A stretch of 64,000 bases of DNA from Stappia stellulata (GTDB lineage Bacteria; Pseudomonadota; Alphaproteobacteria; Rhizobiales; Stappiaceae), in NCBI RefSeq assembly GCF_020176715.1, contig NZ_JAIVMF010000007.1, forward strand, positions 62,001 through 126,000, read 5' to 3'. This document shows, piece after piece, positions 34,740 through 41,947 of the stretch. The notes under the pieces are model-generated. The model ran no database searches and was not told where the DNA came from. It was given only the letters and a program-made list of their open reading frames with translations. Made by a program: the position numbers and the translations under genes. Position 1 is the first letter of the stretch. Each line of letters opens with the position of its first letter.

Positions 34740-36221
34740 ATGATGTGTGACCGTGTGACCGGCCCCCTGGATGGCCCTGCGGCCCAGCGGCTGCATCGTG
34801 CCCGGCTTGCCCTCATGGGTGTGGGGGAGGACGGGGCGCGCATCGGGCCGGGCATGTTCGATGCGGATGTCGTGTCGTTCGCTCATGGCGAAGGCGTGCG
34901 TCGGCCGTTTCCCGGTGCCATACGCAAGGCGGTCGAGGCGTTGCATGACGCGCAAGGCGCGCCGATCGAGAACTACATGTTCCTGCGGCGCTTCCCCGAT
35001 CTCGAGGTGGAAATTTCCAAAAACTTCTGCCGCAACGGCGTTCCGCCCGAGTTTGCGGGCAATGTCGTGCTCGACGCCGGGTCGACGCGCCTGATGGTGG
35101 CCGCTCTTGGCCTGATGAGCCGCGGCGGGGCGGAGGTCGTCACCTCGCCGGGCTTCTATCATCCGCTTGCCGGCTGGTGCGGCTACCTTGATCGGCCGTT
35201 GCATGTGCTGCCGACCTCCAGGGCGTGCGCCTACAAGCTCTGCGCGCAGGACCTCAGGGACTGGCTCGTCCGGACACGGCCCGCAACGCCCCCGCTTCTC
35301 GTTCTCTTCAATCCGACGATGACCGGCGCCGTCTACAGCCAGGACGAGCTGGATGATCTCGGCGAGGTTCTGGTCGGGGCGGACATGCTGGCCATCGAGG
35401 ATGCGCTGTTTGCCGGTTCCGAACACGACCCCGACAAGACCGGTGGCCGTCTGGCCGCTTCGCCGGCGGGCGAGCGCTGCCTCACGGTCGCCGGTGCCAG
35501 CAAGCTGCATTGCCTGGCCAATCTCAGGATCGGCTGGGGGTGCGGCCCGCAATGGCTGATCGGCGCGCTCCAGGACTATGTGACCAGCAGCGCGGCCAGC
35601 ATTCCCCATGTCGCCAAGGCGGCCGCCCTTGGCGCCCTGCGCGCGCCGGCGCTTTTCTCCCGGCGCAATGTCGAGGAGTGCCGGCGGCGGATCGCGCTCG
35701 TCTGCGATCTGGTGCGCGGTCTGGACGCGCGGCTGCGCACGGCGACGCGGCTGAACGCTCCCATGGTGACGGTCGGACACGAGGTGGAGGCCGGACACTC
35801 GGTGCTGCTCGAGTTTCCCTGTCTTGCCGGTCACGATCTCTCGGACGGTGGCGCGCCGCGCGATGGCGCGGATCTGACGCGGCTGTTCCTCAACGAGGCG
35901 AAGGTCGCCTTCGCGCCGGCCCTGTCGCACGGGTTCGACGGTCCGCGCGTGCGCGCGAATGTGGCCTCCATCGGCACGCAATTCACCTATGACGCCTCAA
36001 GGGTCTGGGAGGCGCGGGAGGACGATAGCTGGGGCGAGGAGCAGGAACGCGCCTTCGACGGCGGCTTTGCCCGGGCGCGGGACCTGATCTCCTCCACCTT
36101 CGCCGAACGCATCGAGCCTGCGGTATTCCGGCTGCTGGGCCAGGCGCCCGAGGTGGCGCGATCGCGGCGGCAACGGTCCGCTGCGGCTGCGTTCGCGACC
36201 GGACAGGGGGTGGCGCTGTGA
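34740..36221 (+). CDS. PLP-dependent aminotransferase (fold type I)
   Basis: 493-residue class I/II aminotransferase-like enzyme. The cofactor-binding features are GNVVLDAGSTRLMVAAL, NPTMTGAVYSQDEL (the NPxNPTG region), AIEDALFAGS with the pyridine-binding aspartate, and the Schiff-base lysine in VAGASKLHCLANLRIGW, where the following arginine is also kept. The order fits aminotransferases or related PLP lyases. ATG at 34740 is directly followed by another ATG. First gene of a coupled four-protein operon (HAD hydrolase, Rossmann oxidoreductase, methyltransferase) that continues into a tRNA and a peptide gene. It probably makes or converts an unusual amino acid. Confidence 0.82.
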   Translation: MMCDRVTGPLDGPAAQRLHRARLALMGVGEDGARIGPGMFDADVVSFAHGEGVRRPFPGAIRKAVEALHDAQGAPIENYMFLRRFPDLEVEISKNFCRNGVPPEFAGNVVLDAGSTRLMVAALGLMSRGGAEVVTSPGFYHPLAGWCGYLDRPLHVLPTSRACAYKLCAQDLRDWLVRTRPATPPLLVLFNPTMTGAVYSQDELDDLGEVLVGADMLAIEDALFAGSEHDPDKTGGRLAASPAGERCLTVAGASKLHCLANLRIGWGCGPQWLIGALQDYVTSSAASIPHVAKAAALGALRAPALFSRRNVEECRRRIALVCDLVRGLDARLRTATRLNAPMVTVGHEVEAGHSVLLEFPCLAGHDLSDGGAPRDGADLTRLFLNEAKVAFAPALSHGFDGPRVRANVASIGTQFTYDASRVWEAREDDSWGEEQERAFDGGFARARDLISSTFAERIEPAVFRLLGQAPEVARSRRQRSAAAAFATGQGVAL

Positions 36222-37291
36222 GCCGGCGTGACGGCGCGGGCGTCGCCGAAACCGCCACCGCGATCCAGCCGGCGCTCCGGCCACGCAGCGTGCGGAGCGC
36301 GGTCGGGGCTTCCGTTGCCCCGGCACTGCGTCCCGCCATGGCGGAGGCGCCGGCGGAACCGGTTGAGGCCATGGCGCTTTCCGGGCTGGGCGCGCTGTTC
36401 GATCCGGCGTCCGGCGCCGGAAATCCGCCGCTAGCCGCGCTGGTCGACGTCTGGGGCGTTCTCACCGACGGCGCGCGGGCGTTTGTGCCCGCCATCGAGG
36501 CCTTGAAAGTGCTCAGGGCACGGGGCGTGCCGGTAGCGCTTGTCTCCAACACCTCCAGGCGCGGCGGCGAGCTGGCCCGCCTGCTCGAGGGGCAGGGGCT
36601 CGCATCGGACCTTCATGACGCGGTGATCACCGGCGGCGGTCTGGCGTTCGGGCATCTGTCGGCAGAGGTGGCGCGCCGGCGTGCCGGCGGCGGCGATGAC
36701 TTGCGGTGCCTGATCGTCGGGACCCAGCCGGGCGGCGACTGGGCGCGCGACGCCGGGCTTCGATGCGTGGCAAGCGTCGACGAGGCGGATCTGTTGCTCG
36801 GCTTCGGCGTTCTGGGCGAGGGCGACCCGCGCCCCGGTGCGCCGCCGCCGGCGCCGGATATCGCGGTCCGCCGGCTGTTGCGAACCGCCGCCCGCTCGGG
36901 CCTGCCGCTCATCCTGACCAATGCCGACACCAGCGTGCGCATCGCGGGCGCGCTTCATCTCGGCATCGGGGCGCTTGCGCCGCTCTACCAGTCGCTCGGC
37001 GGCACGGTGCGCATCTACGGAAAGCCGGGCGCGGACATGTTCGCGGCCGCTCTCGACGCCGTCGGGGTCGCCGACCCGGGCCGTGTCGTGATGATCGGCG
37101 ACACTTTGGCGACCGATATCGCCGGCGCCCGCGCCGCCGGCATCGTTACCGTCCTGGTGACCGGCGCCGGCTCGCATGCCGACGAGCTTCATGTCGGGGC
37201 CGGCGGAACCTTCTGCGCCGAGGCGCTTGCCCGGCTTGCCAGGCGCGCGCGGGTCATGCCGCACCATGTGATGGAGGCGATGCAATGGTAG
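36218..37291 (+). CDS. HAD-superfamily class IIA hydrolase
   Basis: 357-residue phosphatase-like protein. Motif I is ALVDVWGVLTDG (nucleophile aspartate near residue 77), motif II VALVSNTSRRG, motif III includes IYGKPGADMF, and motif IV is VVMIGDTLATDIAGARAAG. The DVWGV form is typical of a rhizobial subgroup of class IIA HAD proteins. A 70-residue N-terminal tail of low complexity precedes the domain. Starts at GTG inside the aminotransferase stop (GTGA). It would remove phosphate from an intermediate in the amino acid pathway suggested for this operon. Confidence 0.82.
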   Translation: MSRRDGAGVAETATAIQPALRPRSVRSAVGASVAPALRPAMAEAPAEPVEAMALSGLGALFDPASGAGNPPLAALVDVWGVLTDGARAFVPAIEALKVLRARGVPVALVSNTSRRGGELARLLEGQGLASDLHDAVITGGGLAFGHLSAEVARRRAGGGDDLRCLIVGTQPGGDWARDAGLRCVASVDEADLLLGFGVLGEGDPRPGAPPPAPDIAVRRLLRTAARSGLPLILTNADTSVRIAGALHLGIGALAPLYQSLGGTVRIYGKPGADMFAAALDAVGVADPGRVVMIGDTLATDIAGARAAGIVTVLVTGAGSHADELHVGAGGTFCAEALARLARRARVMPHHVMEAMQW

Positions 37292-38430
37292 AAAAGGCGA
37301 GACGGACCCGTGTCCTGATCTTCGGAGCCGGTGTGATCGGCGGTCATGTCTGCGATCTGCTGTCGCGCATGGACGACCGCTTCGATCTTACCGTTTCGGC
37401 GCGGCGCGCGGACGCGCTGTCCCAGCGCGTGAACCTGTCGATCACCTCCGCGCTGTGTCTCGGGTTCGACCCGCGCATCGAGGCGGTGGCCTGCGATGTG
37501 TTCCAGACCGATGCCTGCGCCGCGCTGATCGACCGGGTCCGCCCGGACATCATCGTCAATGCCACCAGCCTGCAGACCTTCTGGGAAATCGGCCTCCTGC
37601 CGGCGGAGGCCTACAGGCATCTGGAACGCGCGCGCATCGGCCCGTGGCTGCCCAATCACCTCGCCACCGCGCGGGCGCTGATGCGCGCCGTGCGCTCCGC
37701 CGGCAGCACCGCGCTGGTGGTCAATGCCGCCTTCCCCGATGCGGTCAACTCCGCGCTTGCAACGGTCGGTCTCGCCCCGGATGTCGGCGGCGGCAACATC
37801 GCCAACATCGTGCCGACGCTGACCCGTGCCGCAGCGCGCCAGCTCGGCGTCGAGCGCGCGGAGCTGACCGTTCACTTCGTCGCCCATCATGTCGCCTGCA
37901 ACGCGATTTCCTCCTACGGCACGCCGGGCGAGGCGCCCTACCGGCTGAGCATCCTGCTCGACGGCGCGGAGGTTGCCGACACCCTCGATCACACGGCGCT
38001 GTTTGCCAGCGTCATCGGCGAGTTCAAGCGCGTGCGCGGGGTCACCGGCCAGATCGTTGCCGCGTCCGGTGTCGCCGCGGTGACCGCTGCCTTGAGTGCG
38101 CCCGACACGCAAAAACCCATGCATGTGCCGGGTCCCAACGCGCTTCCCGGCGGCTATCCGGCTCTTGTCGGCAAGGGCGAGGTGCGCCTCGCCCTGCCCA
38201 ATGGCCTGCCGCAGGACGAGGCGATCCGCGTCAATCTCGACGGCCAGACGGTGGAAGGGATCTCCGAGATCCGCGCCGATGGCACGATCGTCTATGCTCC
38301 GGCGGAAATGGCCGTGCTGCGCGAGGCCTTTGGCTATGATTGCGCGCAGATGCATGTCGACGAGGTCGACGACTGGGCGGGCGAGTTGCAGGCGCGCTAC
38401 CGCGCCTATGCCGAGAGGCTAAGCGCATGA
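37285..38430 (+). CDS. Rossmann-fold oxidoreductase, saccharopine-dehydrogenase-like
   Basis: 381-residue protein with an N-terminal dinucleotide site RVLIFGAGVIGGHVCDLLSR and a strand-2 SARRAD end that would favour NADP. DIIVNATSLQTFWEIG and NAAFPDAVNSAL form the cofactor cleft edge. The C-terminal part (VERAELTVHFVAHHVACNAI onward) is a mixed domain as in saccharopine-dehydrogenase-like reductases. It overlaps the HAD stop by seven bases and the methyltransferase start by four. A reductase joining or reducing an amino- or oxo-acid intermediate is plausible; no precise reaction can be given. Confidence 0.75.
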   Translation: MVEKARRTRVLIFGAGVIGGHVCDLLSRMDDRFDLTVSARRADALSQRVNLSITSALCLGFDPRIEAVACDVFQTDACAALIDRVRPDIIVNATSLQTFWEIGLLPAEAYRHLERARIGPWLPNHLATARALMRAVRSAGSTALVVNAAFPDAVNSALATVGLAPDVGGGNIANIVPTLTRAAARQLGVERAELTVHFVAHHVACNAISSYGTPGEAPYRLSILLDGAEVADTLDHTALFASVIGEFKRVRGVTGQIVAASGVAAVTAALSAPDTQKPMHVPGPNALPGGYPALVGKGEVRLALPNGLPQDEAIRVNLDGQTVEGISEIRADGTIVYAPAEMAVLREAFGYDCAQMHVDEVDDWAGELQARYRAYAERLSA

Positions 38431-39215
38431 GCGAGGCGGGCGCGATGGCGAAAGACGGACACAGCGGCGATTCGCAGGCGGTGAGCCTGGTGACGGCAAA
38501 CCGGCGTGGACGCACGACGACGCGGCTGAACGAGATCAACCGGCGCTTCGCGGAGCTGGCCGGCAGGGCGTCCCGTCCCGTGCTCGACCTCGGCTGTGCC
38601 TTCGGCGTCGCCACCCACGCAGCTCTGGAGGCCGGCGCCACCGTTCATGCCAATGACATCGATCCGGCGCATCTGGAGGCGACCGCGCGCGATGCGCCGG
38701 CGGGAACCGCGCAGCGGCTGCATCTCGTGCCCGGCGGCTTTCCCGCCGATCTCGAGTTCGCGCCCGGCAGCCTGTCGCTGGTGCATGCCTCCAACCTGCT
38801 GAATTTTCTTTCCGGCGCCGAAATCGAGACGGGCTTTGCGAAAATCGCCGCCTGGCTGGAGCCGGGCGGCCGGTTCCTGTCGATTTCCGGGTCGCCCTAT
38901 GCCGCCAACATTCGCGCGTTCGGGGCGATCTACGAGGCCAATCGCGCTGCAGGAGTGCCGTGGCCGGGCGAATGCCATGACCTTCCGGCGATCTCCGACG
39001 ATCCGACGATCAGCGAGCTGCCGAGGTTTCTGCACCTGCTCGATCCCGACGTGCTCTCCCGCGCCGCGCGGGCGGCCGGTCTGGAGGTCGAGGAGGCGCA
39101 GTTCTTTCACCGCGCGGGAACGCCCGACTACATCGCGCTCGACGGGCGCGAGAACGTCGTCTTCGTCGCGCGAAAACCGACCCCTGAGGACGAAAAGGGG
39201 CAAATGCATCCGTAG
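38427..39215 (+). CDS. Class I SAM-dependent methyltransferase overlapping a tRNA
   Basis: 262-residue methyltransferase. Motif I is VLDLGCAFGVATHAALEAG, with the ribose-binding aspartate in VHANDIDP, and SLVHASNLLNFLSG as motif IV region. It is coupled by ATGA to the oxidoreductase. Its last codons and stop (39206-39215) are at the same time the first ten bases of the tRNA gene, so transcript and tRNA must be separated by processing. All 18 proline codons are CCG, CCC or CCT; none is CCA, in contrast to the peptide gene just downstream. Confidence 0.82.
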   Translation: MSEAGAMAKDGHSGDSQAVSLVTANRRGRTTTRLNEINRRFAELAGRASRPVLDLGCAFGVATHAALEAGATVHANDIDPAHLEATARDAPAGTAQRLHLVPGGFPADLEFAPGSLSLVHASNLLNFLSGAEIETGFAKIAAWLEPGGRFLSISGSPYAANIRAFGAIYEANRAAGVPWPGECHDLPAISDDPTISELPRFLHLLDPDVLSRAARAAGLEVEEAQFFHRAGTPDYIALDGRENVVFVARKPTPEDEKGQMHP

Positions 39216-39393
39216 CTTAACCGGTAAAATGCTGCAGCGGAACGCCTGGAAGGCCTGGCGACTGGGGAATGATTTCACCAGGGCATCGTCATTCCACCCC
39301 GACCCGGATCCCGGAACGGCGGACTTTACGCGGCTTAAGAGCACCAGCTTTGGGAGTTGGTAGGTGCGGGTTCGAGTCCCGTCGGATGCGCCA
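39206..39393 (+). tRNA. tRNA(UGG) with a 112-nt D-loop insertion
   Basis: The outer parts give a complete canonical tRNA. The acceptor stem 39206-39212 (GCATCCG) pairs perfectly with 39383-39389; D-stem GCTT (39215-39218) pairs with GAGC (39339-39342); the anticodon arm is 39344-39360 with loop TTTGGGA and anticodon TGG at 39351-39353; the T-arm has loop TTCGAGT; discriminator G and encoded CCA end at 39393. U8, A14, G18, G19, U33, G37 and the T-loop bases are all present, and the core is exactly 76 nt. Between position 20 (39225) and 21 (39338) lie 112 extra bases that fold on their own. G1-C72 and G73 differ from the C1-G72, A73 set that ProRS uses. A T5 run follows. It is probably co-transcribed with the operon. 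Confidence 0.82.
39226..39337 (+). other. Structured insertion in the tRNA D-loop
   Basis: These 112 bases interrupt the D-loop of the UGG tRNA. GCTGC at 39231-39235 can pair with GCGGC at 39330-39334, closing the insertion. Inside, GGAATGA (39266-39272) pairs perfectly with TCATTCC (39289-39295), extended by GG/CC after a one-base bulge, and CGCC (39243) can pair with GGCG (39257). The insertion is too small for a group I or II intron and is not in the anticodon loop. It could be a retained RNA domain, or be removed by an unknown route. Confidence 0.6.
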
Positions 39394-39440
39394 TTTTTCC
39401 GCGCGCTGCCAGTGTCGGCACGCCGCGCGACATGTGACAC

Positions 39441-39470
39441 GGCCTCCCGGAGCGCGCTCCGGTGGAGGCC
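39441..39470 (+). promoter_or_regulatory. Long RNA hairpin in the peptide leader
   Basis: GGCCTCC (39441-39447) pairs with GGAGGCC (39464-39470) and encloses the palindrome CGGAGCGCGCTCCG. The stem lies between the tRNA and the peptide ribosome site. No U-run follows, so it is not an intrinsic terminator; it may be an RNase processing or stability element. Confidence 0.55.
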
Positions 39471-39494
39471 GGACCAGTTTCCTGCATGGGAAGG

Positions 39495-39505
39495 AAAGGA
39501 GGTGA
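39495..39505 (+). promoter_or_regulatory. Near-perfect Shine-Dalgarno sequence of the CCA-rich peptide
   Basis: AAAGGAGGTGA is almost fully complementary to the 3' end of 16S rRNA and lies six bases before the ATG at 39512. It is the strongest ribosome site in the window and fixes the reading frame of the peptide. Confidence 0.8.
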
Positions 39506-39511
39506 AAAATC

Positions 39512-39844
39512 ATGGACAAAGTGATGGCTATCCGGGAGATCAAGGCCGCGCTCGCGTTGACGAGTGCGCGTCTCTCCGAGACCGCTGCGCCAATGGCGAA
39601 CCGGTCTGTACCAGCGTCTGGTGTTCCAGCCGCTATGCCAAAGCTGGCAGCAGCTCCACCCGCCGTTCCAGCGGGCAAGGGCGTGCCAGCGGGCGCGATG
39701 CCACCCGCTGTTCCAGCCAAGGATCTCGACGATCTGGCTGTTCCAGCGGCGCATCCACTGGCGCGTGATGCGGCGCCAATCGCCAGCTCGGCTCCAATTG
39801 CCGCTGGCGCGCTCGCCAAGTTCGATGCCGTTCCAGCCCGCTAA
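39512..39844 (+). CDS. Pro/Ala/Val-rich peptide with CCA-biased proline codons
   Basis: 110-residue protein unlike any family I know. The first 26 residues form a proline-free, helix-prone leader (MDKVMAIREIKAALALTSAR). The rest is rich in Ala, Pro and Val with repeated VPA units. Of 16 proline codons, 14 are CCA and the other two, CCC, each directly follow a CCA; there is no CCG or CCT. The CCA codons stand at irregular spacing and in varied contexts (gcg-cca-atg, gta-cca-gcg, atg-cca-aag, cat-cca-ctg), so the bias is not simply a copied repeat, although GTTCCAGC occurs five times. CCA is the codon of the UGG tRNA encoded 119 bases upstream. It could be a precursor peptide or scaffold in which CCA positions receive a special amino acid. 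Confidence 0.7.
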   Translation: MDKVMAIREIKAALALTSARLSETAAPMANRSVPASGVPAAMPKLAAAPPAVPAGKGVPAGAMPPAVPAKDLDDLAVPAAHPLARDAAPIASSAPIAAGALAKFDAVPAR

Positions 39845-39923
39845 GGCCTGACCGGCCGGCGGGCGACCGTCGTCCGATAGCCGCAGCACCGGAACGCGCG
39901 CGATCTTGCGCTTTCGCAAACTG

Positions 39924-39965
39924 TGATGCCCTGGAAATGATGCCCTGGAAACGATGCCCTGTAGA
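39924..39965 (+). repeat. Three tandem 14-base repeats
   Basis: TGATGCCCTGGAAA occurs twice without spacing (39924-39937, 39938-39951), followed by a third, changed copy starting CGATGCCCTGTAGA (39952-39965). Confidence 0.7.
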
Positions 39966-40134
39966 AACCCGCGCCGCGGGAAGGCCGGCCGGCTTGGTCC
40001 GGTTTTTCCGCGGCTGCATCGGCACGAAGCGCGCCGGACGCTGCCCGCCGGTGACCCTGTCCGGGCGGACTTGCAACTTTTGCAAGTTTTGCACCGGATT
40101 TTGCGAAGATTGCCTTTTGAATTGCGAATATTGA
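39937..40134 (+). CDS. Possible small cysteine-rich protein
   Basis: An open frame of 65 codons whose C-terminus has six cysteines in 18 residues, spaced C-x2-C-x2-C-x3-C-x2-C-x3-C (CNFCKFCTGFCEDCLLNC). The first four match the [4Fe-4S] ferredoxin spacing. All these cysteines are TGC codons in a locally AT-rich stretch. No good ribosome site precedes the ATG at 39937, and a GTG start nearer the cysteines is possible. It may be a second small peptide of this locus, or chance. Confidence 0.25.
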   Translation: MMPWKRCPVETRAAGRPAGLVRFFRGCIGTKRAGRCPPVTLSGRTCNFCKFCTGFCEDCLLNCEY

Positions 40135-40237
40135 TCGACTTGCGTGTGACCGCGCGCTTGACGCGCAGCACGGCAGGGCGGGGAGAAGTCGCCGGTCGTG
40201 CGCCGGTCGGGATGTCTCGCGGGCCCGTCTTGAAACC

Positions 40238-41947
40238 TCAGGCCTCAACGCCCGGCAGCAGGCCGCAGGCGATCATCGCCGCCCTTACCTGCGGCTGCAG
40301 CACCGCATTCGCTTCCGGTCCGATCTCCCCGTCGCGGCGGGCCTGCGCGAGGCGTGCCAGGAAGCGCGCCGGCGCCACCGGATCGTCGCGCTCGCAGGCC
40401 TGGATCAGCACCCGCCGGAGCCGCTCGCCCTGAAGCAGCGCGAAGCGTCCGGCATCTCCAAGAAACGCTGCTCCAAGAGGCGCTGCCGGTTCTGCCGATG
40501 GGGCAAGCGCGAGTGCCGCGAGATCGAAGCCCGGATTGCGCGCCGGATCGGTGAGGGTCGCGAGGTCGATCTCCAGCGCAACGCCCGCCTCCGCGATCAG
40601 GAACGGCGTCAGCGCCACGGCCGCAACGGCCGCGTCCCGCGCCGCATCGGGCAGGGCGGCGAGCGCTGCCGGCAGGTTGCGGGCGAGCCTGTCGATCAGG
40701 TCGTCGATCAGGAGCGTGTTGCCGGTGCTCGATTTCATCGTCGATCCGTCGAGCCGCACCAATTGATGCGGCAGCATCCGGTAGCGCTCGAAAAACGGTC
40801 CGGCGCCGAGCGCCTTCAAGGCATCGATGCGGATCTCGGTGCTGGTCAGCCATTCCTCGCCCATAACATGCAGGATGCGGTCGGCCGGCGATGCGCTCTG
40901 TGCCGCCTCGAGCCAGAGAACCAGCGCGCGCAGGTGTTCGGTGGCAAAGCCGTCGCTGCGGGTCAGCGGGCAGCGCGGGTAGTCGTCGCGCCCGGTTTCC
41001 AGAATCACCACGCCGTCGTCCTCGCGCCGTGCCAGACCGACGTCGATCAGCCGGTCCGCCAGCGCCAGCGCGGGTCCGACCGCGTCCGATTCGCGCAGGA
41101 AGATGTCGTGGCGCTGGCCGAGGCGGGCGAGCGTCGCCGCCTGGTCGCGCAGGACGAGATCGATCATGTCCCGCCACAGGGCGAGTGTTGCCGGATCGCC
41201 CGCCCGCCAGGCGGCGAGCGTCGCATCGGCGGCATCGCCATGCAGCGTCAGTTCGCGCGCGATCGGCGCGTCGGCATCCGCGCCGCCCTCTTCAGTCACG
41301 ACGGCGCCTGCGATGTCACCGTAAAGCCTGCCGACAATCCGGTCGACGGGGCCGCTGCCCTTAAGCGCAGACAGTCCGCCCGCAGCCGAAACGCCGGCCA
41401 GTGCCTCGGCGATGTTGCGGCCGATGTCGCAGACGACGCTCTGGCAGGCGACCTCGGCGCCGCGTGCCCGCCACAGCGCGGCAAGCGCGCCGCCGAGCGC
41501 GATGTTGCGCAGGTGGCCGACATGGAGCGCCTTGTTGGCGTTGGGATCGAGATAGTCGACGACAATCCGCCTGCCCGAGGCGGTGCCGCCGAGCCGCAAG
41601 GGATCGCGCCGATGCAAGGCGAGACCGTCGGCGACGCGCTCCAGCGTCGCGTCGGTGAAGCGCAGCGTCAGCCGGTTCTTGGAAAGCCGCGCGCTTGCAA
41701 CCGCCGGCCAGGCCTCGAAGACAGCTCCAAGCGCCGTGCGGGCCGCGCCGTCGACGCGGCCCTTGAGGATGACGGAGACGTCGGCGGCACCTTGCGGGGA
41801 GCGGCGAAAGTCGGTCTGCCGGTCGAGCGCGCCGACGGCAGCCTCAAGCCCGGCCTCGACGAGCGCCGACAGGGCGCCCGCGCCGAGCGGGCCGCCCGGA
41901 TCCGCGATGCCGCCGCTCTCCTGTGCCGTTTTCGGGTCCTGGGTCAT
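40238..41947 (-). CDS. Arginyl-tRNA-synthetase-like paralogue
   Basis: 569-residue class I synthetase of ArgRS type and length. An N-terminal domain of about 115 residues, which in ArgRS contacts the tRNA D-loop, precedes the catalytic core with the HIGH motif as KALHVGHLRN (residues 140-149) and the KMSKS-type loop as MKSSTGN (404-410). The helical C-terminal anticodon-binding region is present. The segment equivalent to the ArgRS VVG-x-x-Q-x-x-H substrate region reads HVMGEEWLTSTEI, lacking the glutamine and histidine, which suggests another amino acid. It is convergent with the tRNA/peptide genes and lies 81 bases after mtnA. It is the natural candidate for charging the D-loop-inserted tRNA; that pairing is inference. 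Confidence 0.82.
   Translation of the reverse strand: MTQDPKTAQESGGIADPGGPLGAGALSALVEAGLEAAVGALDRQTDFRRSPQGAADVSVILKGRVDGAARTALGAVFEAWPAVASARLSKNRLTLRFTDATLERVADGLALHRRDPLRLGGTASGRRIVVDYLDPNANKALHVGHLRNIALGGALAALWRARGAEVACQSVVCDIGRNIAEALAGVSAAGGLSALKGSGPVDRIVGRLYGDIAGAVVTEEGGADADAPIARELTLHGDAADATLAAWRAGDPATLALWRDMIDLVLRDQAATLARLGQRHDIFLRESDAVGPALALADRLIDVGLARREDDGVVILETGRDDYPRCPLTRSDGFATEHLRALVLWLEAAQSASPADRILHVMGEEWLTSTEIRIDALKALGAGPFFERYRMLPHQLVRLDGSTMKSSTGNTLLIDDLIDRLARNLPAALAALPDAARDAAVAAVALTPFLIAEAGVALEIDLATLTDPARNPGFDLAALALAPSAEPAAPLGAAFLGDAGRFALLQGERLRRVLIQACERDDPVAPARFLARLAQARRDGEIGPEANAVLQPQVRAAMIACGLLPGVEA

Follow-up and report, generated by a model that had tools for sequence, protein, structure and literature searches.

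A seven-part Stappia cassette with a UGG tRNA, an ArgRS-like synthetase and a CCA-rich protein gene: a candidate for sense-codon recoding

Can a sense codon carry a separate meaning in a single bacterial mRNA? This question is raised by a gene cassette in a 64,000-nucleotide (nt) stretch of Stappia stellulata DNA (contig NZ_JAIVMF010000007.1, positions 62,001 to 126,000 of the forward strand; referred to as the window), which belongs to a genome of 58 contigs (G000). The cassette has seven parts, in this order: an aminotransferase-like gene (AT), a HAD phosphatase-like gene (HAD), a Rossmann oxidoreductase gene (ROS), a methyltransferase gene (MT), a tRNA with the anticodon UGG (the special tRNA), a gene for a 110-residue protein (PEP) and a convergent gene for a synthetase resembling arginyl-tRNA synthetase (ArgRS), designated RS. 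An initial annotation, made from the sequence alone, had listed a four-gene operon, a UGG tRNA, a peptide gene and an ArgRS-like gene, all of which are indeed found where it placed them (Table 1). The reading that we favor, and judge probable on comparative grounds, is that the CCA codons of one mRNA, that of PEP, are translated through an orthogonal tRNA-synthetase pair into an amino acid other than proline, probably a non-standard one.

In the proposed mechanism, AT, HAD, ROS and MT would make an unusual amino acid, and RS, with its changed amino-acid site, would load it onto the special tRNA. The tRNA, which combines an arginine-like acceptor stem with a UGG anticodon, would deliver this residue at the CCA codons of PEP, 14 per chain, with ordinary proline in the same protein written as CCC or CCG. 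Pairing of an insert in the D-loop of the tRNA with three repeats in the 3' untranslated region (UTR) of PEP, to which it is complementary, would limit the recoding to this mRNA.

Distribution of the cassette and codon choice in PEP

The family sample consists of 87 genomes, 14 of the genus Stappia and 73 others. RS is detected in five of the 87, all within the genus (E <= 1e-20), and a DNA search with the tRNA and PEP (E <= 1e-10) recovers the same five genomes and no others; the cassette is absent from the other 73 family genomes searched. All five carry the seven parts in a single order at a single site. Co-occurrence of the tRNA, PEP and the synthetase had been suggested as a check in the initial annotation, and the three are always found together and never apart. 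Retention of the whole set in five genomes points to more than chance, and comparison of these loci establishes the cassette as a unit. The cassette, with the tRNA and the UTR repeats, is present in Stappia stellulata DSM 5886, whose locus has the same DNA as G085, a genome of the genus, and an exact short-pattern scan of contigs found two loci, identical where they overlap to the DNA of G077 and G085. In wider samples, of the order (297 genomes, E <= 1e-20), the class (385 genomes) and the phylum (398 genomes; both E <= 1e-25), the one genome with a match to RS is that of the window itself; these samples overlap, contain few of the species that carry the cassette and have no more than a few candidates scored in each genome. 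RS has no match in plasmids or viral contigs, and the special tRNA has none in plasmids.

The cassette is bounded by a divergent M19 dipeptidase gene and by mtnA. Of the nine cassette-free genus genomes, eight could be compared at their mtnA loci (G078 has no usable mtnA match); in seven of these, the M19 gene directly adjoins mtnA, with approximately 85 to 210 nt between the match ends. G074 has no M19 gene within 1.5 kb of mtnA and shows before mtnA a visibly A+T-rich stretch, which may be a different insertion into this site. When presence of the cassette is mapped onto an mtnA tree of 13 genomes, at least two changes are needed, indicating that the block was gained or lost more than once.

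PEP begins 118 nt after the tRNA. Of its 16 proline codons in the window, 14 are CCA, the count given in the initial annotation, and 2 are CCC. This is far from the habit of the genome, where CCA makes up 3.7% of 3728 proline codons in 152 crude gene calls (binomial P of about 1e-18) and where none of the 145 genes with at least 10 proline codons exceeds 30% CCA; a cassette-free relative, G082, uses CCA at 4.1%. A general bias for A-ending codons was considered and rejected, as only 2 of 34 alanine codons and 1 of 8 valine codons of PEP end in A. The 14 CCA columns of the window are CCA in all five genomes, and PEP of locus L041 has a fifteenth CCA inside an insertion. Among the other fixed four-fold columns, 15 of 38 change their third base, versus none of the 14 proline columns (Fisher p = 0.005). 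The three non-CCA proline columns are less constant: in two loci a CCC is replaced by TCC or GCC, the second CCC is CTG in L041, and CCG is found in L041 alone. These CCC and CCG codons always lie immediately 3' of a CCA, so that PEP distinguishes the two kinds. Selection on the choice of CCA is thus documented by comparison; from it we infer decoding of CCA by the special tRNA on the ribosome.

Conservation of the CCA triplets could also have nothing to do with their reading as proline-box codons, if they were kept as an RNA signal or as tryptophan codons (TGG) of the opposite strand. An antisense frame across PEP (39335-40171, minus strand), in register with it, is open in all five loci and has Trp at each CCA, and the hexamer TTCCAG, common to 5 of the 14 CCA sites, complements a CTGGAA present in the insert and the UTR. 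However, it is missing at the other 9 sites, and the changes between the window and L041 concentrate on the third positions of the plus frame (34, versus 10 and 6 at the other two). Read in the plus frame, 26 codons change synonymously and 14 nonsynonymously, whereas the antisense reading gives 4 and 36. The excess at third positions is a feature of the more distant loci, as the window and L038 differ in PEP by four changes only, none of them at third positions. This substitution pattern identifies the plus frame as the coding one and led us to reject the Trp-rich antisense reading frame as a true gene; the explanation as a whole has hardly any probability left.

The special tRNA and its companion synthetase

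The special tRNA is 188 nt long, with the acceptor stem GCATCCG/CGGATGC, G73 and an encoded CCA end; reading by hand gives a D-stem GCTT/GAGC, an anticodon loop TTTGGGA and a T-arm. ARAGORN does not report it, and Rfam family RF00005 matches it in part, with 29.5 bits against a cutoff of 29. In the window, the 3' end of the MT gene and the 5' end of the tRNA share ten bases, so that the tRNA is probably excised there from a longer RNA; L041 has no such overlap, the MT gene stopping before the tRNA. The D-loop comprises 120 nt in total. The insertion described in the initial annotation is thus present, its length being approximately 109 extra bases rather than 112. In the other four loci, 78 or 79 of the 79 bases of the tRNA body are identical to those of the window, and this near invariance in five loci led us to reject a remnant of an integration site.

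Of the 42 distinct tRNA sequences in the host, tRNA-Arg(CCG) is nearest to this body; it agrees at 51 of 77 positions in the alignment and is just ahead of the runner-up (50 of 77). In the acceptor stem it shares 12 of 14 bases, versus 10 for the next host tRNA. The available part of PMC9976931 gives C1-G72 and A73 as determinants of bacterial prolyl-tRNA synthetase (ProRS), G35/G36 as proline identity, and A20 and C35 as arginine identity, with G73 accepted. The special tRNA has G1-C72 and G73 in place of the ProRS determinants (the initial annotation had noted the absence of A73 and G72) and T20 (placed by hand) and G35 instead of A20 and C35. The ordinary tRNA-Pro genes of the host (UGG, CGG and GGG) all have C1-G72 and A73. 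The comparison thus shows a tRNA that lacks major proline and arginine determinants and that neither house synthetase would be expected to charge well.

Another function would be that the tRNA supplies proline, or aids translation of a CCA-rich gene in some condition, so that the choice of CCA is regulatory and no codon is recoded. UGG is a proline anticodon, G35/G36 are ProRS determinants, and the PEP sequence looks like that of an ordinary protein rich in Ala and Pro, all of which would fit. On the other side stand the missing C1-G72 and A73, which bacterial ProRS uses according to the same partial source, the ArgRS-like nature of the companion synthetase, and the variation between loci of the CCC and CCG codons directly after CCA, where CCA itself stays constant. 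We regard this explanation as improbable.

RS encodes 569 residues, and the catalytic domain of ArgRS (Pfam family PF00750) is recognized in all five copies, confirming the convergent ArgRS-like paralogue of the initial annotation. The protein scores 87.4 bits against TIGR00456, the argS equivalog model, below the cutoff of 261.65. Its class I HIGH-type motif, HVGH, is invariant in the five sequences. By contrast, a Tyr and an Asp (E. coli positions 313 and 317), which all 31 of the sampled canonical ArgRS sequences retain (one further 28-residue fragment was left out of the count), are not found in RS; Tyr313 and Asp317 of the E. coli enzyme presumably take part in arginine binding. The RS stretch aligned to this region, SDGFATEHLRALVLW, is invariant in the five RS sequences and has at the two positions Glu/Ala in the HMM alignment or Gly/Glu in a hand-made gapped one; a profile comparison aligned the HIGH region only. 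A site that is altered and yet conserved, as comparison of the five sequences indicates, is what one would predict if RS used a different substrate. A structure model of RS built from five sequences is poor (mean pLDDT of 43.9), its best-modelled part lying within residues 13-108. The initial annotation had further noted that ArgRS enzymes contact the D-loop through their N-terminal domain. For the pair considered here, this idea needs a correction: the special tRNA has T20 where arginine identity uses A20, and inspection of RS by eye reveals no recognizable GDYQ, a motif of that domain in ArgRS.

RS might also charge the tRNA with a standard amino acid, arginine or another, and thereby give CCA in PEP the meaning Arg; the four enzymes would then work on PEP after its translation or separately from it. 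Both the tRNA body and RS are indeed nearest to the arginine system, and the ProRSx/tRNA-ProA and CysRS*/SelC* pairs retained the parent amino acid (PMC9437257, in the part available). Against this, RS lacks the Tyr and Asp of the sampled ArgRS, four enzyme genes travel with the tRNA-synthetase pair, and CCA read as Arg would bring no gain over Arg codons, unless it were conditional. We consider charging with a standard amino acid unlikely, although less so than the supply of proline. Non-standard charging would agree with the proposal of the initial annotation that the paralogue charges the special tRNA and the residue enters PEP at CCA, a proposal that is supported by its fit with the invariance of CCA (five of five genomes), the missing major ProRS and ArgRS determinants and the altered RS site.

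That annotation had offered another route, in which the residue is passed on by a ligase. In this case, the charged tRNA would feed a peptide ligase or modify PEP, and codon reading would be irrelevant. Aminoacyl-tRNAs do feed peptide aminoacyl-tRNA ligases (PEARLs) and cyclodipeptide synthases, as described in the accessible portions of PMC11962472 and PMC4159871, and such aminoacyl-tRNA-dependent enzymes resemble the present system in combining tRNA-dependent chemistry with a peptide. Unlike them, the cassette has no recognizable ligase: Pfam and NCBIfam searches of the cassette proteins returned no ligase-type family. Since the donor route also leaves the match of UGG to CCA and the invariance of CCA unexplained, it appears very improbable, and the ligase variant of the proposal finds no support among the cassette proteins.

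The D-loop insert and the repeats downstream of PEP

The host has a normal tRNA-Pro(UGG) and uses CCA throughout its genome, so that recoding, if real, needs to be confined to the PEP mRNA. A candidate for this is the D-loop insert, whose CCAGGGCATC is complementary over 10 to 11 nt to GATGCCCTGG. Each of the five loci has two copies of the latter and a third partial one, approximately 80 to 120 nt past the end of PEP. The insert segment with CCAGGGCATC may form a hairpin of -8.9 kcal/mol, with an alternative fold at -10.5, and the binding of the hairpin to the repeats is calculated at -15 to -20 kcal/mol. In each other locus, the insert differs from that of the window at 1 to 4 of 109 positions, although only 105 of 180 four-fold sites of ROS (58%) are identical in the most distant pair; these few base changes in the insert (four in L041) give no covariation. 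A comparison of the window with L041 finds 42 of 48 positions identical in the repeat stretch and 39 of 72 in the part of the UTR that precedes it, the first 75 nt past PEP. The latter value is about neutral. A 13-mer, GATGCCCTGGAAA, occurs twice in the window genome, both times at this locus, and in 0 to 3 copies in other genus genomes (one each in four cassette-free genomes; G081 has one outside the locus). Such complementarity, conserved against a near-neutral background, suggests that the tRNA may be tethered to its own mRNA, and we consider tethering through insert-repeat pairing plausible on this basis. Another short motif, GCACCGGAACGC, is conserved in the same UTR, at 39886-39897 and at the matching place in L041. 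Beyond the repeats lies a terminator-like hairpin, one of two consensus matches in the region, versus 4.9 expected by chance.

Several considerations count against recoding as such or against the pairing that would confine it. The support is that of sequence comparison, and the five cassette genomes are related, so that few lineages stand behind the conservation of the codons. The normal tRNA-Pro(UGG) would compete for CCA. The special tRNA retains G73, which is compatible with arginine, and G35/G36 of proline identity; its folding energy is no better than that of shuffled sequences (z of 0.90, with 161 of 200 as stable), and an insert of approximately 109 nt may hinder folding or use by the ribosome. 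The alignment of the key loop of RS is ambiguous, and its specificity is not readable from the sequence. As for the pairing, the duplex test made first gave no sign of an excess in four of the loci, where 142 to 262 of 500 shuffled UTRs were as good as the real ones. With shuffled inserts, the same test gave 81 to 142 of 500 in four loci; the numbers for L041 were 21 for UTRs and 7 for inserts. This test allows long interior loops, and exact-match and cofold tests were made after its negative result. Of 3000 shuffled UTRs, 56 reach a 10-nt match and 16 the observed 11 nt, and 7 to 11 of 500 shuffles bind as well as the real sequence in each locus, the loci not being independent.

The pairing might instead govern how the tRNA is processed out of a transcript shared with PEP, or be due to chance, with recoding restricted by conditional expression. 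The tRNA and PEP may share a transcript, given the overlap of the tRNA with the MT end in the window, and the statistics of the pairing as a single test are modest. Conservation of the triplicate repeats in five of five loci, at 42 of 48 positions versus 39 of 72 in the preceding UTR, and confinement of the exact 13-mer to this locus in the window genome argue for tethering. Between the two we see an even chance, a judgement that concerns tethering and not the recoding of CCA.

Enzyme genes, related systems and implications

The AT, HAD, ROS and MT genes lie on the plus strand and overlap stop to start. Upstream of AT, the segment 34580-34720 has 33% G+C, versus 68% in the window, and is a possible promoter region, in which no sigma-70-type promoter match was found. 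Protein identities to the other four loci are 63 to 91% for AT, 50 to 93% for HAD, 73 to 99% for ROS and 75 to 99% for MT. A pyridoxal phosphate (PLP)-dependent enzyme, a phosphatase, an oxidoreductase and a methyltransferase, assigned by family matches, would fit the synthesis of an unusual amino acid. The NCBIfam matches of AT are aspartate transaminase, GntC and VioD, all far below their cutoffs; the likeness to GntC and VioD, enzymes of arginine-derived cyclic amino acids, is only a hint at the amino acid, as both models rank behind that of aspartate transaminase. A structure prediction of ROS from five sequences is poor, with a mean pLDDT of 40.6.

Table 1. Positions of the cassette parts and associated elements in the window
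Feature	Position	Strand	Evidence or remark
AT, PLP-dependent fold-type I aminotransferase-like	34740..36221	+	Pfam PF00155, 4e-13
HAD, HAD-IIA phosphatase-like	36218..37291	+	TIGR01459, 120 bits vs cutoff of 103.75
ROS, Rossmann oxidoreductase, saccharopine-dehydrogenase-like	37285..38430	+	PF03435, below its cutoff
MT, S-adenosylmethionine (SAM)-dependent methyltransferase	38427..39215	+	PF13649, 5e-12
Special tRNA, anticodon UGG (TGG, 39351-39353)	39206..39393	+	cloverleaf read by hand; partial Rfam match
D-loop insert	39225..39333	+	105-108/109 bases identical in other four loci
Possible insert hairpin, loop with CCAGGGCATC (39278-39287)	39264..39300	+	complementary to UTR repeat
PEP, 110-residue protein gene	39512..39844	+	AAAGGAGGTGA just upstream
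Three near-repeats of GATGCCCTG(GAAA), candidate docking sites	39925..39961	+	downstream of PEP stop codon
Terminator-like hairpin with T-run, after repeats	39983..40009	+	consensus match
RS, ArgRS-like synthetase, HVGH kept, amino-acid site diverged	40238..41947	-	Pfam catalytic-domain match, 3.6e-10

Relatives of ROS (39 to 44% identity) are present on rhizobial plasmids. In the three neighborhoods viewed (L084, L085 and L087), the gene adjoins a PLP enzyme annotated as alanine racemase and a HAD protein of TIGR01459, a grouping that appears to represent a conserved, unnamed pathway; a DMT transporter is also nearby in L084 and L085. In G717 (L088, 2104-8579), relatives of AT and ROS (29% and 36%) are grouped with an MFS transporter and two ATP-grasp proteins, a setting that would suit a module for making an amino acid. 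This is possibly an amino-acid-ligase-type peptide cluster that shares the AT/ROS module and joins its product into a small peptide. No match to RS or PEP is seen in the neighborhoods viewed on the rhizobial plasmids and in G717. A more remote ROS relative (27%) on a plasmid of Planktothrix agardhii (L086) lies near genes for an alkene reductase, an aminotransferase, an asparagine synthase and a phytanoyl-CoA dioxygenase, perhaps a specialized metabolite cluster.

To our knowledge, selenocysteine and pyrrolysine are the two natural additions to the genetic code, both made through stop codons. The pyrrolysine cassette has the gene content pylTSBCD, and pyrrolysine is read at UAG in several proteins. 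The Stappia cassette likewise links a dedicated synthetase and tRNA with genes that would serve amino-acid biosynthesis, but it involves a sense codon, CCA, an ArgRS-related enzyme instead of PylRS and one linked target. As the codon and the synthetase family differ, it is pyrrolysine-like in architecture and not a member of that system. In selenocysteine insertion, an mRNA element limits recoding, as is proposed here for the UTR repeats. The differences are that the proposed element pairs with the tRNA itself and that no special elongation factor or tRNA-modifying converter is recognized among the cassette proteins, to which that search was confined. A further likeness is the unusual D-arm of the selenocysteine tRNA (PMC7609411, in the part available).

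Other known pairs share single traits with the cassette. In the Streptomyces ProRSx/tRNA-ProA system, a duplicated synthetase has co-evolved with a tRNA that bears the anticodon of another amino acid, and in the CysRS*/SelC* system of Desulfobacterales, a noncanonical synthetase is genetically coupled to its own tRNA. As far as the available part of PMC9437257 describes them, the former keeps its parent amino acid and comes with no target mRNA or biosynthesis genes, and the latter inserts cysteine at UGA and adds no new amino acid. The bacterial allo-tRNAs resemble the special tRNA in their odd structures and in the mismatch of anticodon and identity but have a 12-bp acceptor domain and mostly serine identity, with no dedicated synthetase or target mentioned in the accessible text of PMC7609411. 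A full-text literature search, with most subscription journals outside its coverage, found no description of such a set of parts, in line with the initial annotation, which knew of no such system.

A more far-reaching version, in which an amino acid beyond the known 22 is sense-coded and confined to one mRNA by an antisense address in the D-loop of its tRNA that docks on the 3' UTR repeats, we put forward as a tentative and rather doubtful possibility. In this version, gain or loss of the cassette as one block would add or remove a codon meaning while leaving the other CCA codons of a genome untouched. A dedicated pair for CCA, which continues to encode proline elsewhere in the host, would in itself show that the meaning of a codon can be set per mRNA; it would provide synthetic biology with a natural orthogonal pair of the ArgRS type and perhaps with an addressable tRNA.

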